Under the pieces are notes generated by a model that ran no database searches, was not told where the DNA came from, and saw nothing but the letters and a program-made list of their open reading frames with translations. DNA of 64,000 bases from Alphaproteobacteria bacterium (GTDB lineage: Bacteria; Pseudomonadota; Alphaproteobacteria; Micropepsales; Micropepsaceae): positions 62,001 to 126,000 of the forward strand of contig JAGWMG010000008.1 in assembly GCA_028871795.1 (NCBI GenBank), given 5' to 3'. Of this stretch, positions 35,792-63,200 are shown piece by piece. The stretch's first letter is position 1, and each line of letters starts with the position of its first letter. Both the position numbers and the translations under genes were made by a program.

Positions 35792-36295
35792 TCAATCGGC
35801 CGCGCGGCCGATGTCGTCGAGGCGGGCTTTGAGCTTGATCCGGTCGAGCTTGTCGAACGGCAGTTCGGTGAAGACGCCGATACGGTTGCTGAGCTGCCTC
35901 AGCGCTTCGCGAAATGCCTGCATCTTCTCCGCGTCGGATCCTTCCGCCGCAGCCGGATCTGGAATACCCCAATGGGCGGTCACCGGCTGCCCGGGCCAGA
36001 CGGGACAAACCTCGCCCGCCGCCCGATCGCAGACAGTGAAGACGAAATCCATTTTTGGCGCGCCGGCCACGGCGAATTCGTCCCAGCTCTTGGAACGCAA
36101 GCCGTCGGTGGGAAATCCGATCTGCTTGAGCAGCGCCAGGGCGAAAGGATTGACCGCGCCTTTGGGAAAGCTGCCCGCCGAGAAGGCGCGAAAGCGGCCT
36201 TGGCCTTCGGCGTTCAGGAAGGCCTCCGCCAGGATCGAGCGCGCCGAATTGCCGGTGCACAGGAAAAGCACGTTGTAGGTCCGTTCAAGCGTCAT
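35792..36295 (-). CDS. arsC: Arsenate reductase ArsC (LMW-phosphatase type)
   Basis: 167 aa. The P-loop CTGNSARS (Cys13-x5-Arg19) and two more cysteines, Cys89 (TVCDRA) and Cys97 (EVCPVW), match the thioredoxin-coupled arsenate reductases related to low-molecular-weight tyrosine phosphatases. It reduces As(V) to As(III), the substrate of Acr3. It overlaps the end of arsR by 11 nt and is 10 nt before acr3. An LWPTP without arsenate activity is unlikely because of the operon. Confidence 0.93.
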   Translation of the reverse strand: MTLERTYNVLFLCTGNSARSILAEAFLNAEGQGRFRAFSAGSFPKGAVNPFALALLKQIGFPTDGLRSKSWDEFAVAGAPKMDFVFTVCDRAAGEVCPVWPGQPVTAHWGIPDPAAAEGSDAEKMQAFREALRQLSNRIGVFTELPFDKLDRIKLKARLDDIGRAAD

Positions 36296-36617
36296 CGCAG
36301 CATTCCTTCATCGCGATGTCGCAGATTTCCGGACGGCCGCCGCAGCAATCGTTCATCAGGAAGCCCAGCAGTTCGCGCATACGCGCGATGCGCACGGCAT
36401 AGATGAGATTGCGGCTTTCGCGGCGCTGGCTGATCAGCCCGGCGCGCTCCAGTTCTTTCAAGTGGAAGGACAAGGTCGGCGCCGGCGTGTTGAGTGCTTC
36501 CGCGATGGCGCCGGCCGTTTCGCCGGACGGACCGGCGCGCATCAGCCGCCGAAAGATCGCAAGACGCGTTTCTTGGGAAAGGGCGGCCAAAGCAGCCAAG
36601 GCTTCAGATGATTTCAT
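36285..36617 (-). CDS. arsR: ArsR-family metalloid-responsive repressor
   Basis: 110 aa with the winged helix of ArsR/SmtB proteins (ALAALSQETRLAIFRRLMRAGP, then TLSFHLKELERAGLISQRRESRNLIYA). Cysteines cluster at the C-terminus (DCCGG, ICD, ECCDD), suggesting a C-terminal As(III) site rather than the helix-alpha3 CxCxxC site, which is missing. It probably represses its own operon. The gene begins an arsR-arsC-acr3 unit. Confidence 0.92.
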   Translation of the reverse strand: MKSSEALAALAALSQETRLAIFRRLMRAGPSGETAGAIAEALNTPAPTLSFHLKELERAGLISQRRESRNLIYAVRIARMRELLGFLMNDCCGGRPEICDIAMKECCDDA

Positions 36618-36695
36618 ATTTCTACAATAATGAAAATATTGGAGAAAGCAATCCTGCTTGGGAGATTTCGTCTGGAATGAACGGAATCCGGAGTC

Positions 36696-36739
36696 TCAGC
36701 CCGGCGGCGGGCCGAGCTTTCCACCAGCGAGCCGGAGAT
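36696..36739. repeat. Direct repeat, copy 1 (remnant of the fliP 3' end)
   Basis: 44 bases identical in order to the 3' end of fliP (38861-38911) except for a 7-base gap. Similarity continues weakly for about 20 bases on the left (AATCCGG). It has the same orientation as the genuine fliP end. It lies between arsR and the curli-like genes. Confidence 0.85.
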
Positions 36740-36842
36740 CAACGCGCATCTTGCCGACGGTCATTCGGCTTGCGGCAACTTTGCGCCATTTCCTGCCGTT
36801 CCGCACCTGCTCAGGGCGAAGCAGGAGCTGGCCCAAAACCGC

Positions 36843-37364
36843 TTAATCCAGGTTCCTCATCGCTGTGGCCCGGCCGCGGTACCGGCGAGGTGGGTTGTTG
36901 TCCCAGACCGGTTGAGCCGGCGCGCCGTTCCACTGATCAATCAGAGTTACATTGTGATCGCCGGATTGGGACGGCGATGCGTTCAAATCAGACCCTAGCT
37001 GGTTGACATAGGTAGTGTTTGCCGCGCCGCTTTGACGAATGGCGGCGGAGTCGTTGCTGCCATACTGGGAGGCGGCGGCAAAATGGCCTCTGCCGCTCTG
37101 ATCTAGCGTGGCGGTGTTGCTTTGGCTTCCGGCGTGGGATCCGGCATTGGCGGCGGCACTCTGGGCTACGTCTACCAGCTGGTTGCGAAGCCGGTTGTAT
37201 TGCTCGGCATCGATTCTCTGTCTGCTGACCAATACACGCCCGTTATACTGGCGCACCCAGGTGAACTGGTAGCTGCCGGATTGGTTGTCCCGGGCAGGGT
37301 CCCCTGCAAAAGCAGCGGAGAATAGGACCGCGCAGGTCAAGGCTGCAAAGATCGGGCGGCGCAT
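36843..37364 (-). CDS. Curlin-repeat protein, possible minor subunit
   Basis: 173 aa, secreted (signal MRRPIFAALTCAVLFSAAFAG). After a ~70-residue non-repeat part (WVRQYNGRVLVSRQRIDAEQYNRL, then an Ala/Ser/Gly linker) come about three curlin-type repeats with the Q-x-G-x2-N/D pattern every ~22 residues (LDQSGRG, ASQYGSND, IRQSGAAN, VNQLGSD, SQSGDHN). By analogy with CsgB it might nucleate an amyloid fibre. The start at 37364 is favoured because GGAG lies 6 nt upstream; ATGs at 37370 and 37376 overlap that site. It diverges from the second curlin gene. Confidence 0.72.
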   Translation of the reverse strand: MRRPIFAALTCAVLFSAAFAGDPARDNQSGSYQFTWVRQYNGRVLVSRQRIDAEQYNRLRNQLVDVAQSAAANAGSHAGSQSNTATLDQSGRGHFAAASQYGSNDSAAIRQSGAANTTYVNQLGSDLNASPSQSGDHNVTLIDQWNGAPAQPVWDNNPPRRYRGRATAMRNLD

Positions 37365-37608
37365 TTTCATCTCCATTCTTCGAACTTTTCACCATGCAGT
37401 ATGCCCTGTCTCCTCTGAGCTTCAGCTGAAGACCGCGTTCAGCCGCGGTTCAGAAAGCGCCCTCTCGACGGTAAGCGGCGGGACGGTCGCGCCGAACGGT
37501 TCTGAACGGGTGGTGAATTCGGCGTTCAGGTGTCGCTCAGACGCAATCCTCTAGAACCATCGCCATACGAACGTACCACAACGGTCGTTCCGAATTAGGA
37601 GAACAGCA

Positions 37609-38112
37609 ATGAGACGGACTCTATTGGCTACAGCGGCTCTGGTTGCCTTCTTCGCCGCCGATGTGACTGCGGCGAATGCCCAGAACGCCGCATCGGTTTA
37701 TCAGTACGGTTATCGGAACACCGGGTCGTTCGCGCAGAACGGCCGGTATAACCGCGGCACGATCCGTCAGGACGGCGAGTATAATTATTCGCGCGCCGTT
37801 CAACAGGGGAGATGGAACTACCTCTATCAACAGCAGCTCGGCAACCGCAACCGCTCGCTGATCGATCAGTTCGGAAACAACAACTATGCCGTCACCGGCC
37901 AGCAGGGCTGGGACAACGCGGCCACCACCTATCAGACGGGCCGGTCCAATACCGCGGGAATCGCTCAGATCGGCTCGAACCACAGGGCGTATGTCGAACA
38001 GGAAGGCCAGAACAACACCATGGCGACGATCCAGGTCGGCAACGGACAGCATGCTGAAGCGCACCAGTCGGGTGACGGCAATGTCGGCGTGATCATTCAG
38101 GGTGGCGACTGA
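37609..38112 (+). CDS. Curlin-repeat protein, possible major subunit (CsgA-like)
   Basis: 167 aa with a signal peptide (about 1-24) and then six to seven ~22-residue curlin repeats almost end to end, each with Q-x-G-x2-N spacing (VYQYGYRN, FAQNGRYN, IRQDGEYN, VQQGRWN, QQLGNRN, IDQFGNNN, TGQQGWDN, YQTGRSN, IAQIGSN, VEQEGQNN, IQVGNGQ, HQSGDGN). Asn, Gln and Gly are abundant and Cys absent, as in CsgA. It probably forms an extracellular amyloid fibre. GGAG at 7 nt supports the ATG. No CsgG-type secretion channel is in the window. Confidence 0.8.
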   Translation: MRRTLLATAALVAFFAADVTAANAQNAASVYQYGYRNTGSFAQNGRYNRGTIRQDGEYNYSRAVQQGRWNYLYQQQLGNRNRSLIDQFGNNNYAVTGQQGWDNAATTYQTGRSNTAGIAQIGSNHRAYVEQEGQNNTMATIQVGNGQHAEAHQSGDGNVGVIIQGGD

Positions 38113-38126
38113 GGGAACCCATCGGG

Positions 38127-38152
38127 GGGAGGCGGATCGAACCACGCCTCCC
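38127..38152 (+). terminator. Intercistronic hairpin between curlin and csgH genes
   Basis: GGGAGGCG (38127-38134) pairs with CGCCTCCC (38145-38152) across a 10-nt loop and has no T-run. It may act as an attenuator or mRNA stabiliser that keeps expression of the upstream curlin gene higher than csgH. Confidence 0.5.
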
Positions 38153-38180
38153 ATCGGCACGCAAACGAGGAGTGATGGCG

Positions 38181-38558
38181 ATGAAAAAGTTTTGGGTATG
38201 GATCGGTATCGTTCCGCTAGCTTTCGGCGTCTTGGCCACTACCGGTGCTTTTGCCATGCGAAATCCGTTGTCGCAGCGATGCGAAATCCGGGTGTCGCGC
38301 AGTGGGTCGATTGTGCGCATGGACGGCGTCGTCAGCGGGCCGGCTGGTTCGAAGGGGCAATACCGCTTCATTCTCGCAAAGAGCGGCCCGAACGGCGATT
38401 CGCAAATCGGGCAAGGCGGCGAATATGCAATTGGACGTTCCGGCGCGGCGGTCGTTTCCTCGAATGAATTGAATATCGACAGCCGTGACCGCTATCGTGC
38501 CATGATGCTGATCAGCCACGAAACCGGTGATACCAACTGCAGCCAGACCAGCCCGTGA
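38181..38558 (+). CDS. csgH: Curli assembly chaperone CsgH
   Basis: 125 aa with an N-terminal signal or anchor (about 1-25). The mature domain reads CEIRVSRSGSIVRMDGVVSG, QYRFILAKSGPNGDSQIGQGGEYAI and ends with a second Cys (TNCSQ), the pattern of CsgH, the alphaproteobacterial counterpart of CsgC that keeps curlin from aggregating in the periplasm. The ATG at 38181 has GAGGAG 8 nt upstream; the ATG at 38175 is too close to that site. It follows the curlin gene in the same direction, which supports the curli reading of the neighbours. Confidence 0.75.
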   Translation: MKKFWVWIGIVPLAFGVLATTGAFAMRNPLSQRCEIRVSRSGSIVRMDGVVSGPAGSKGQYRFILAKSGPNGDSQIGQGGEYAIGRSGAAVVSSNELNIDSRDRYRAMMLISHETGDTNCSQTSP

Positions 38559-38860
38559 CGGTAAGGCGGCGTCAGCTGCGCGCTCTTCCGGCCACCCGGC
38601 TCGATCCGGAGCCGAATAAGCGCGCCCCCGTCTTCGACAGCGGAAATATCGATACCGCCGCCATGGGCTTTGGCGATATGGCTGACCTGAGCCTTCGAGT
38701 TTTGTCCAAATGGGGGGGAAATTTTCCGCTGCTGGCAATATCTGCTCTTGGCGCAAAGCAGTCGTCAGCCACCTTCGGGGAATGTCCGCTTTTCACCGAG
38801 CCGGCCGGGCGCGCCGATTGCTCGGCCAAGCGCCGCGCATGACGCGCGCAATCCGGTCCG
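38559..38860. other. Intergenic region between csgH and fliP
   Basis: About 300 bp with no intact gene. The left half contains a histidine-kinase-like fragment on the minus strand (listed separately). The right half (about 38745-38810) has open frames on both strands that look like decayed non-coding sequence. The left arm of the fliP 3'-end repeat ends the region. Confidence 0.5.
38590..38707 (-). pseudogene. Remnant of a histidine kinase C-terminus
   Basis: In one minus-strand frame the sequence reads AQVSHIAKAHGGGIDIS then EDGGALIRLRIEPG. This is the end of a HATPase domain (histidine kinases usually have ...I.xxHGGxIxVxS....G..xxLxLP). No start codon or upstream kinase sequence is attached and the frame is broken a few codons on, so it is a leftover fragment. 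It is too short for certainty. Confidence 0.4.
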
Positions 38861-38911
38861 TCAGCCCGGCGGCGGGCCGTGCAGGTAGCTTTCCACCAGC
38901 GAGCCGGAGAT
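38861..38911. repeat. Direct repeat, copy 2 (genuine fliP 3' end)
   Basis: The last 51 bases of fliP, from the stop codon inward. 44 of these bases recur in the same orientation at 36696-36739 on the far side of the curli-like genes. Confidence 0.85.
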
Positions 38912-39634
38912 TAGCCGCCAGCCGTCCACCAGTACGAAGAAGATGAGCTTGAACGGCAGCGAGATGATCACGGGGGGCAGCATCATCATGCCCATACTCA
39001 TCAGGATGGAGGCCACCGCCATGTCGATGATGAGGAACGGCACGAAGATGAGAAAACCGATCTCGAAGGCGCGCTTCAGTTCCGACAACATGAAGGCCGG
39101 CGCGATGGTGGTGAGCGCCACCGCTTCGGCGGCCGGCGGCGCCTTCTTGCCGGACATGTCCAGGAACAGCTTGAGGTCGGCTTCGCGCACGTGGGCGAGC
39201 ATGAACTTCTTCATCGGCACCGCGGCGCGGTCGAAGGCCTGTTCGGTGGTGATCTGATTGTTGACCAGCGGCTCGATGCCCTGCGTGTAGGCGTCCTTCA
39301 GCGTCGGCGTCATCACGAACAGGGTGAGGAACAGCGCGAGCGAGACGATCACGCTGTTGGGCGGGCTTTGCTGCAGGCCCAGCGCCGTGCGCAGCAGCGA
39401 CAGGACCACGACGATGCGCACGAAGCTCGTCATCATAATGAGGATCGACGGCGCCACGCTGAGGATGGTGATCAGCGCGATGATCTGCATCATGCGGTCG
39501 GTGAACAGCCCGCCGCCGGAGAAATCGATCGACAGTCCGCCCGCCGCAGCGGCGGCCGGGGCCGCGGCATGGGCCGCGCCGGGGATCGTCAGCGCGAGCA
39601 GGAGCGCAGCCGGGATTATGAGACGCCTGGTCAT
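38861..39634 (-). CDS. fliP: Flagellar export protein FliP
   Basis: FliP (257 aa) is a core subunit of the FliPQR export gate. A signal peptide (about 1-22) precedes four membrane segments. Family landmarks: PSILIMMTSFVRIVVVLSLLRTALG, VSLALFLTLFVMTPTL, and FLIFVPFLIIDMAVASILMSMGMMMLPP. The ATG at 39634 overlaps the fliO stop by 2-4 nt; the frame stays open upstream only as a shadow of fliO. Its last codons form one arm of the repeat around the curli island. Confidence 0.97.
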   Translation of the reverse strand: MTRRLIIPAALLLALTIPGAAHAAAPAAAAAGGLSIDFSGGGLFTDRMMQIIALITILSVAPSILIMMTSFVRIVVVLSLLRTALGLQQSPPNSVIVSLALFLTLFVMTPTLKDAYTQGIEPLVNNQITTEQAFDRAAVPMKKFMLAHVREADLKLFLDMSGKKAPPAAEAVALTTIAPAFMLSELKRAFEIGFLIFVPFLIIDMAVASILMSMGMMMLPPVIISLPFKLIFFVLVDGWRLISGSLVESYLHGPPPG

Positions 39635-42324: not shown

Positions 42325-43401
42325 ATGGCCGACGACCGCGATCCATCCCAACAGACCGAAGAACCGACACAAAAACGCCTCGACGATGCGCGCGAACACG
42401 GCGACGTCGTCAAAAGTCCCGAAGTACAGACGCTGGTGCTGCTCCTGGGCGGCACGCTTGCGATTGCCGTGTTCGGCCAGTCCGCGGCGCTGGGACTGGC
42501 CCGCACCTTCCAGTTGTTCCTGGCCGAGCCGGACCAGATCGGCATCAACCCCGGCGAATTGATGGGAATGATGCGCGAGCTGCTGGGACAGCTGGCGCTG
42601 GTCCTGGGGCCGTTCTTCACGGTTATGATGGTCGCGGCTTTGGCCGGAAACCTTGTCCAACACCGTCCCGGCTTCACCTTCGAGAAGATCAAGCCGGACC
42701 TGTCCAAGCTCTCGCTGACCTCCGGCCTCAAGCGGATGTTCGGGCTCGACGGTTTTGCCAATCTGTTCAAAGGACTGCTCAAGATCGCGATCGTCAGCGC
42801 GGCGATCTGGACCCAGCTGTGGCCCGCGCGTGGAGGCCTCGAAGCGGTGCTGCAGCAATCCCCCGCTGGAATCGCCGGCGACATGACCCAGCTGCTGTTC
42901 AAGGTGCTGATCGCGGCGCTGTCGGCGATGGCCTTCATCGCGGGCGCCGACTACCTGATGCAGCGCTACCAGTTCCTCAAGCGCAACCGGATGTCGAAGC
43001 ACGAGGTCAAGGAGGAATTCCGTCAGAGCGAAGGCGATCCGATGATCAAGGCCAAAGTCCGCCAGATCCGTCAGGAGCGGGCCAAGAGGCGCATGATCGC
43101 GGCGGTGCCGGGGGCCACCGTGGTCATCACCAACCCGACGCACTTCGCCGTCGCGCTCAAGTACGAATCGGGCAAAATGGCGGCTCCGGTCTGCGTCGCC
43201 AAGGGCGTGGACGCCCTGGCGCTGCGCATCCGCGAGGTGGCAAAAGAGCATGATGTGCCCATCGTCGAGAACCCGCCCTTGGCGCGGGCGCTGCACGCCG
43301 CCGTGGACGTCGACGAGGCAATTCCGGTCGAGCACTACAAGGCGGTGGCGCAGGTCATTGGCTACGTCATGCGCCTTACCGGAAAGATCAGACAGAATTG
43401 A
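42325..43401 (+). CDS. flhB: Flagellar export substrate-specificity switch FlhB
   Basis: FlhB (358 aa). Four membrane helices (about 33-210) precede a cytoplasmic domain with the autocleavage site NPTH (270-273, VVITNPTHFAVALKYE). Cleavage there switches export from hook to filament. The N-terminus has the typical EEPTQKRLDDAREHGDVVKSPEV. The ATG directly follows the fliR stop. Confidence 0.97.
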   Translation: MADDRDPSQQTEEPTQKRLDDAREHGDVVKSPEVQTLVLLLGGTLAIAVFGQSAALGLARTFQLFLAEPDQIGINPGELMGMMRELLGQLALVLGPFFTVMMVAALAGNLVQHRPGFTFEKIKPDLSKLSLTSGLKRMFGLDGFANLFKGLLKIAIVSAAIWTQLWPARGGLEAVLQQSPAGIAGDMTQLLFKVLIAALSAMAFIAGADYLMQRYQFLKRNRMSKHEVKEEFRQSEGDPMIKAKVRQIRQERAKRRMIAAVPGATVVITNPTHFAVALKYESGKMAAPVCVAKGVDALALRIREVAKEHDVPIVENPPLARALHAAVDVDEAIPVEHYKAVAQVIGYVMRLTGKIRQN

Positions 43402-43460
43402 ATCGTCGGAGGCCGTTCGTGGCTCTCGCCGCCGCCGATAATGACGGGTAATGTCCGCGC

Positions 43461-61895: not shown

Positions 61896-63200
61896 ATGAT
61901 TCCGCGATACGCCCGCGCCGAAATGACGGCCGTCTGGTCGGCCGAAACGAAATTCCGCATCTGGTTCGAGATCGAGGCCCATGCCGCCGACGCGCTGGCC
62001 AAGCTCGGCGTCATCCCCAGAGAAGCCGCCGCGAAAATCTGGGAGAAGGGCAAAGCGGCCGCGTTCGACATCGGCCGCATCGACGAGATCGAACGCGAGG
62101 TGAAGCACGATGTCGTCGCCTTCCTGACGCACCTGTCGGAAATCGTCGGCCCCGAGGCGCGCTTCGTGCATCAGGGCATGACTTCGTCGGACGTGCTGGA
62201 CACCTGTCTTGCCGTGCAGCTTCGCCGCGCCGCAGATATTCTTATCAGCGACGTCAACCGCCTGCTCGCGGCGCTGAGGGCGCGCGCCCTGGAGCACAAG
62301 CACACGCCCACCATCGGGCGCAGCCACGGCATCCATGCCGAGCCGACGACCTTCGGTCTGAAGCTCCTGGGCTTCTACGCGGAATTCGAGCGCGCCAGGG
62401 ACCGGCTGACGGCGGCGCGCGAAGAGATTTCCACCTGTGCGATCTCGGGCGCGGTGGGCACCTTCGCCAATATCGATCCGGCGGTGGAAGCCCACGTCGC
62501 CAGCAAGCTGGGCCTCAAGGTCGAACCGGTTTCGACGCAGGTGATCCCGCGCGACCGCCACGCCGCCTATTTCGCGGCGCTGGGCGTTGTCGCAAGTTCG
62601 CTGGAGCGGCTGGCCACCGAAATCCGCCATCTGCAGCGCACCGAGGTCCTGGAAGCGGAAGAGCATTTTTCCGAAGGCCAGAAGGGCTCCTCCGCCATGC
62701 CGCACAAGCGCAATCCGGTCTTGAGCGAGAACCTCGCCGGGTTGGCGCGGATGGTGCGCGCTTACGTGACGCCCGCGCTGGAGGACGTGGCGCTGTGGCA
62801 CGAGCGGGACATCTCGCATTCCTCGGTGGAACGCTATATCGGGCCCGACGCGACGGTGACGCTCGATTTCGCGCTGGTGCGCGCGGCGGGCATCGTCGAG
62901 AAGCTGGTCGTCTATCCCGAGCGCATGTTGGAGAATCTGGAGAAGACGCACGGCCTGGTGCACAGTCAGCGCGTGCTGCTGGCGCTGACGCAAAAGGGCC
63001 TGGGGCGCGAGGACGCTTATCGCCTGGTGCAGAAAAACGCCATGCGGGCATGGAAGGGCAAAGGGGCGCTGCTCGATCTGCTCAAGGCCGATCCCGAGGT
63101 GACGGGCGCGCTGTCCGCCAAGGAGCTTGAAGGGCTGTTCGACCTCGCCCACCACTTCAAGCAGGTCGATACGATCTTCGCGCGCGTGTTCGGCAACTAA
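61896..63200 (+). CDS. purB: Adenylosuccinate lyase PurB
   Basis: 434 aa, used twice in purine synthesis (SAICAR to AICAR, adenylosuccinate to AMP). The fumarase-superfamily signature [16 protein letters not shown] (about 265-280), TSSDVLDT and [11 protein letters not shown] are intact. It lies 9 nt after the ABC ATPase gene and may be read from the same transcript. purC follows beyond the zeta-subunit gene. Confidence 0.97.

Follow-up and report, generated by a model that had tools for sequence, protein, structure and literature searches.

A curli gene set that appears to have entered the 3' end of fliP in a Micropepsaceae genome, with a second species carrying other cargo at the same place

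How the end of a flagellar gene came to stand on both sides of a set of curli genes was the question raised by a 64,000-nucleotide stretch of DNA (the window; positions 62,001 to 126,000 of contig JAGWMG010000008.1, assembly GCA_028871795.1) from an alphaproteobacterium of the family Micropepsaceae, the genome of which is referred to as G000. The last 51 bases of fliP were found a second time in the same orientation (left copy), beyond two curlin-repeat genes, csgH and the end of a kinase gene; all features are collected in Table 1. Left and right copies were identical at 44/44 aligned bases and differed by one 7-base gap, the motif TGCAGGT being absent from the left copy, and their longest common exact run was 25 bases at most. 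The original prediction had described this pair from the letters alone, and its coordinates, orientation and gap were all exact. In the 8 kb beyond fliP the second end reached a Smith–Waterman score of 77, whereas 60 Markov resamples averaged 24 and did not exceed 38. A possible extension of 14 bases past the stop (36682–36695 versus 38847–38860), identical at 9/14 positions and weaker than the core, may also be part of the repeat. Searching G000 with a 151-base stretch around the left copy returned that stretch and the fliP end only, a 68-base fliP-end query led to the same two places, and no third copy of the fliP end was found with either query; the repeat thus occurs at two places in the genome and not at many unrelated loci.

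Table 1. Features of the arsR–fliP interval, in positions of the window.
Feature	Position	Strand	Basis
arsR-type regulator, next to the fliP end ancestrally	36285..36617	-	Pfam HTH_20/HTH_5
arsR–fliP intergenic stretch; its last 14 bases (36682–36695) may be a repeat extension	36618..36695	.	blastn similarity, conserved arsR spacing
Left copy, a vestige of the fliP 3' end that lacks 7 bases and stands where fliP ancestrally stopped	36696..36739	-	sequence comparison
Left arm of the insert	36740..36842	.	outside the stretch common to the G067/G072 curli modules
Curlin-repeat gene 1 (csgA/B type), intact	36843..37376	-	PF07012, E 2.7e-8
Curlin-repeat gene 2, intact	37609..38112	+	PF07012, E 7.6e-22
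csgH, intact	38172..38558	+	PF21112, E 2e-9
Histidine kinase 3'-terminal remnant (C-terminal ATPase end)	38543..38686	-	partial matches in G026, G067, G062
Dispersed repeat copy, the only one found in G000, ending 68 bp from the fliP stop	38737..38792	+	sequence search
Right copy, the present functional fliP 3' end	38861..38911	-	sequence comparison
fliP, intact	38861..39631	-	PF00813, E 5.1e-80

The layout without the insert was available from relatives in the genus. In G026 and G031, and in the more distant G029 and G022, a single fliP end directly adjoins arsR, in the first two at the arsR promoter; this is the empty site with one repeat copy that the original prediction had named as support for an insertion. 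By FliP protein identity to G000 (91% for G026, 89% for G031) these are two of the four closest relatives and not the sole closest, because G067 and G072 are about as close. Between 28410 and 45569 of the window, G026 keeps the same order with three differences: the curli module is absent, about 440 bp more lie between arsC and arsR, and 2.3 kb more lie behind flhB. The last of these, about 2.3 kb that the window lacks (43385–43460), is present in both G026 and G031 (L037 13236–15583). The blastn similarity of the arsR–fliP intergenic stretch reaches 36656 with G026 and 36652 with G031. The distance from the fliP stop to arsR was 70 bp in G026 and 75 bp in G031, and the left copy in G000 stands 79 bp from arsR by the same measure (2244 minus 2165); the left copy therefore marks the ancestral fliP stop, so that the insertion point would lie inside fliP, about 51 bp before the stop. 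Curli genes beside fliP were found in no relative among the 47 genomes examined, and neither was the arrangement that would speak for a different history, curli genes next to fliP without a second copy of the repeat. On these four points (empty sites, a vestige at the ancestral stop, a repeat that is not scattered, no relative with curli beside fliP), the earlier claim of an insertion into the gene end is supported.

The 3' flank of fliP is very variable in the genus, many members having a cation-efflux gene no more than 400 bp away and others inserts of up to several kb. arsR was found within 4 kb of fliP in 11/47 genomes; four of these intervals were empty and seven filled, two of the latter with a second fliP end and the others with seemingly ordinary genes (judged by eye). 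In G067 (L174, at the 60 bases before the fliP stop), the DNA next to fliP looks by eye like the promoter region of arsR; no arsR match was found in this flank, and arsR has perhaps been lost there from an empty-type site.

The PF07012 matches of both curlin genes and the PF21112 match of CsgH exceeded the Pfam cut-offs, and the kinase remnant, 48 residues long and with no Pfam match, was recognised by partial identities of 51, 52 and 64% to G026, G067 and G062. In G062 the match falls on the C-terminus of an intact ORF (L090 208–1590), which by eye reads as a putative histidine kinase (H-box, GSGLGLAI). Membership of the remnant in a wider curli module was rejected, no convincing match being present in other curli loci. 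Against G067 and G072, respectively, dN/dS was 0.16 and 0.20 for curlin gene 1, 0.17 and 0.15 for curlin gene 2, and 0.12 and 0.30 for csgH, a range (0.12–0.30) that points to working genes; the two curlins and CsgH probably function as an alphaproteobacterial curli set. Relatives of curlin 2 occur in 5/69 genomes of the genus (G000, G067, G072, G076 and G085), with 69–81% identity between G000 and the other four, in whose available fliP flanks no curli genes were found. csgH adjoins curlin 2 in 14/14 distinct loci (those of the same four genomes and L077–L086; L073–L076 repeat the four and were excluded), and most of the more distant curli relatives bear the label Parvibaculum or Rhodobiaceae. 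The stretch that resembles the G067 and G072 curli modules runs from about 36867 to 38561 and covers the interval between the end of curlin 1 and that of csgH, and the likeness to both genomes around curli is confined to the module itself, 36740–36842 and 38562–38860 not being common to it. Curli dS was 0.78–1.81 versus fliP dS of 0.32 (G072) and 0.54 (G067), a contrast that is a weak gauge of vertical inheritance because fliP codons are constrained. Three matches over the cut-off to PF03783, the CsgG-type exporter, were found in G000; since such exporters are present in all 7 genomes searched, including the curli-less G026 and G031, this evidence holds at the level of the family only.

A DNA search with 38562–38846 led to a second genome, G066, in which the order is fliP, ParD, ParE (both by Pfam), a second fliP end, a TPR gene and arsR. 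This second end comprises 59 bases, compared with 51 in G000, and lies 698 bases from the first; the G066 fliP contains two ambiguous residues in the assembly. The two ends differ at 6/59 sites, five of which are third codon positions, and in both the end of the reading frame and the stop are kept, with one V/I change. As decay in place would seldom give that pattern (about 2%, binomial by hand), one of the two was probably derived from another fliP gene. The sequences just inside the G000 and G066 inserts were unlike, 322/500 shuffles scoring as well. With G066 the reading as a gene-end insertion gains a second species with other cargo, beyond the evidence that the original prediction had. 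On the fliP tree, an unstarred branch (94/95) takes in G000, G072 and the group of G066, and adjoins a starred branch of G026, G031 and G067; G066 is nearer to G000 than G026 and G031 are, again on the branch without a star. Because G066 groups near G000, the two may share a single older event, against which stand the identical copies in G000, the differing copies in G066 and the lack of a second copy in G072. A vestige of an older, tandem double insertion was considered beside arsR in G066, where 13/15 bases match (p about 0.055). Genes 52–55% identical to the G066 parE were also seen about 1.2–1.3 kb from the fliP stop in L102 (G021) and L114 (G033), loci without a second fliP end.

The rarity of such an end was gauged in two ways. 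Second fliP ends were present in the available flank of 2/48 fliP ends from 47 genomes (G000 and G066), and the other 46, among them intervals filled with other genes, had none; all remaining rows scored z ≤2.6. For this, 49 rows were scored (G029 twice, G063 with two loci), with flanks of 349 to 8000 bases; the flank was ≤1.5 kb in 8 rows and reached the full 8 kb in 21. A search of all 69 genomes with the 68-base fliP end matched 40 and gave no further pair on one contig. Duplication of the fliP end as a common feature of the genus was thus rejected. Extra matches in G026 (C1) and G072 (C67) are gapped (80% over 49 and 84% over 38 positions), lie inside ORFs of other proteins and were put down to chance, further short ones were seen in G071 (C154) and G079, and a second match in G063 (C117), tried as a scattered copy, is a second fliP-like locus. 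In the other comparison, 614 ORF ends from 60 loci (755,566 bases; at least 150 aa, longest non-overlapping frames, spurious ones included) were screened at ≥40 bits, and two were duplicated, both of them fliP; the loci had been chosen around fliP and curli, so that this is not a whole-genome survey. fliP ends make up at least 28 of the 614 by a strict motif and at most about 43 by locus count, and both duplicated ends would be fliP by chance with a probability of about 0.2–0.5% (calculated by hand).

Judged from sequence, both genomes appear to hold an insertion inside the gene end that brought a replacement end, in two species and with different cargo. The explanation ranked first, which we put at a probability of roughly 0.45, is site-specific integration into the fliP 3' end by a recombinase that has since disappeared or works from another part of the genome. 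The fliP 3' end would be the attachment site, at which an element with a matching end recombines: the DNA would enter the coding sequence about 51 bases before the stop codon and bring a substitute 3' end, so that fliP remained intact, and a 44-base vestige of the original end would be left behind next to arsR. Site-specific integration accounts for the geometry at the gene end, for the restoration of fliP and for the fact that the place was used more than once. It is favoured by direct repeats of the gene end flanking foreign DNA in G000 and G066, by an intact fliP with a replacement end, and by the empty sites, the low dN/dS of the cargo and the second species with other cargo. Because G066 has the same layout with a toxin–antitoxin pair, the fliP end looks like a landing site. 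Counting against site-specific integration are that no recombinase was recognised in the insert and no mobile form found, the single ends in 46/48 cases and the unlike inner arms, the same gene end having been hit in both genomes with repeats of different length; the 44/44 identity in G000 is equally explained by local duplication. Of the integration proposed in the original prediction, the insertion into a gene end is supported; both the involvement of a recombinase and its identity are points that we infer.

No recombinase was recognised among the ORFs of the insert and PF00589 (tyrosine recombinases) had no match on the contig (C5), in line with the absence of an integrase noted in the original prediction. 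Elsewhere in G000 there were 14 PF00589 matches, 13 of them over the cut-off, and these proteins could act in trans; in G066, PF00589 had no match on the fliP contig (C95) and six elsewhere. Three adjacent same-strand PF00589 genes were observed in G000 (C6:119273–121661), a candidate for what is known as a recombinase-in-trio element. The fliP end was not found in plasmids, phages or IMG/VR (two exact patterns for the latter), the insert DNA had no match in plasmids and curlin 2 none in phages, and csgH had only two plasmid matches (33–35%, Rhizobium and Sinorhizobium plasmids). A plasmid or phage source of the insert was accordingly rejected, no mobile form having been found in plasmids, phages or, by exact patterns, IMG/VR. 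A FliP protein scan of IMG/VR gave one relative of 46% identity, on a contig (L184 87–746) where the FliP-like gene lies near phage tail-type genes (types assigned by eye); it may mark the border of a prophage close to fliP in a different group. A more specific form of site-specific integration, which we regard as rather doubtful, would make the fliP 3' end the attachment site of small cassettes without recombinase genes (curli, parDE) that carry their own spare fliP ends and would rely for movement in trans on a recombinase, either chromosomal or visiting; a dispersed repeat 68–69 bp from the core would perhaps form part of the element end.

The same dispersed repeat bears on the second-ranked explanation, a homology-assisted import, which is unlikely but fares better than those that follow. 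DNA from a related strain, in which that strain's fliP 3' part was followed by the cargo, would have been joined by homology on one side and illegitimately inside the recipient fliP end on the other, which would leave the last 50–60 bases stranded. Such a process is described in the available part of PMC3240628, and the high variability of the fliP 3' flank in the genus and the resemblance of the two G066 ends to alleles of different fliP genes agree with it. In G000 the 57-base repeat piece lies 68 bp from the present fliP stop; in G066 (L131 10276–10331) the distance, measured to the stop of the distal copy, is 69 bp. The repeat core, with up to one mismatch, occurs once in either genome, at these fliP-linked places, which also favours import; the spacers between repeat and stop are unlike (p 0.54), which does not. 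The core was found in 23/69 genomes, some with tens of copies (multicopy in G079, G071, G080, G035 and others) and G026, G031, G067 and G072 with none. As the repeat lies inside the insert in G000, and in G066 past the distal copy towards arsR, no single simple scheme fits both positions. Import would further predict random join points, yet the vestiges measure 51 and 59 bases; fliP directly followed by curli was found in no relative among the 47 genomes; identity along fliP has no clear switch of affinity near the end (by eye); and donor and recipient ends in G000 would have to agree at 44/44 sites.

Third, and improbable, is a local duplication through break repair or template switching, in which replication would copy the fliP end, jump to curli DNA and re-enter fliP slightly upstream. 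For G000 it gives the best fit of all readings to the copies, identical at 44/44 aligned sites, and the insert looks pieced together from curli genes, the truncated end of a kinase gene and part of a repeat. No second curli copy that might have served as template was found in G000 (95.6% complete), and no other duplicated ORF end was present among the 614 tested. In G066 the 6/59 differences, five at third positions, would be reached by unconstrained decay in about 2% of cases (binomial by hand). The ectopic duplication that the original prediction had named as its alternative thus keeps a place for G000 alone, where the copies are without substitutions, and is opposed by the pattern in G066. 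An assembly artefact is very improbable, for although the draft is in 22 contigs, the 7-base gap and the at most 25 exact bases shared by the copies make a simple repeat-driven misjoin unlikely, the G066 copies differ by 10% and the genes of the cargo read as intact.

Replacement of a gene end on integration is known from genomic islands, of which the well-studied ones are large and carry their own recombinase. The fliP locus resembles such islands but has no recombinase, and was for that reason kept apart from them. According to the available text of PMC4482086, dusA-specific islands insert at the 5' end of dusA, have a mean size of 42.6 kb and possess an integrase gene in common; as here, the end of a protein gene is hit, a new end is supplied, the old one is displaced and imperfect direct repeats result, whereas at fliP it is the 3' end, the inserts measure about 0.64 and 2.1 kb, and an integrase is lacking. 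The SGI1-type islands at the trmE 3' end, as described in the accessible portion of PMC8409611 and compared by description only, likewise use the 3' end of a protein-coding gene and, unlike the present inserts, are mobilised by conjugative plasmids. Homology-facilitated illegitimate recombination, in the part of PMC3240628 at hand, would produce the layout from one homologous and one illegitimate junction, but the sequences do not single it out and the join points seem similar in both species. Among the best matches of longer literature lists, at the level of titles and the beginnings of abstracts, none gave fliP as an integration site, which is no proof of novelty; a mention of 'flip' was discarded as the name of a phage.

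That one flagellar gene end received very small cargo of unrelated kinds in two species, with no recombinase found there, suggests a landing site the machinery of which is missing or remote. For the curli genes, the placement of csgH beside csgA/B-type genes agrees with alphaproteobacterial curli operons as outlined in the available sections of PMC3521004, where about half of the alphaproteobacterial genera are without CsgE/CsgF and horizontal transfer is judged a minor player from tree comparison. Unlike that picture, the curli set occurs here in 5/69 genomes of the genus and once inside fliP, and the locus would offer, set against the view of minor transfer in those sections, a specific example in which a curli set has been relocated.
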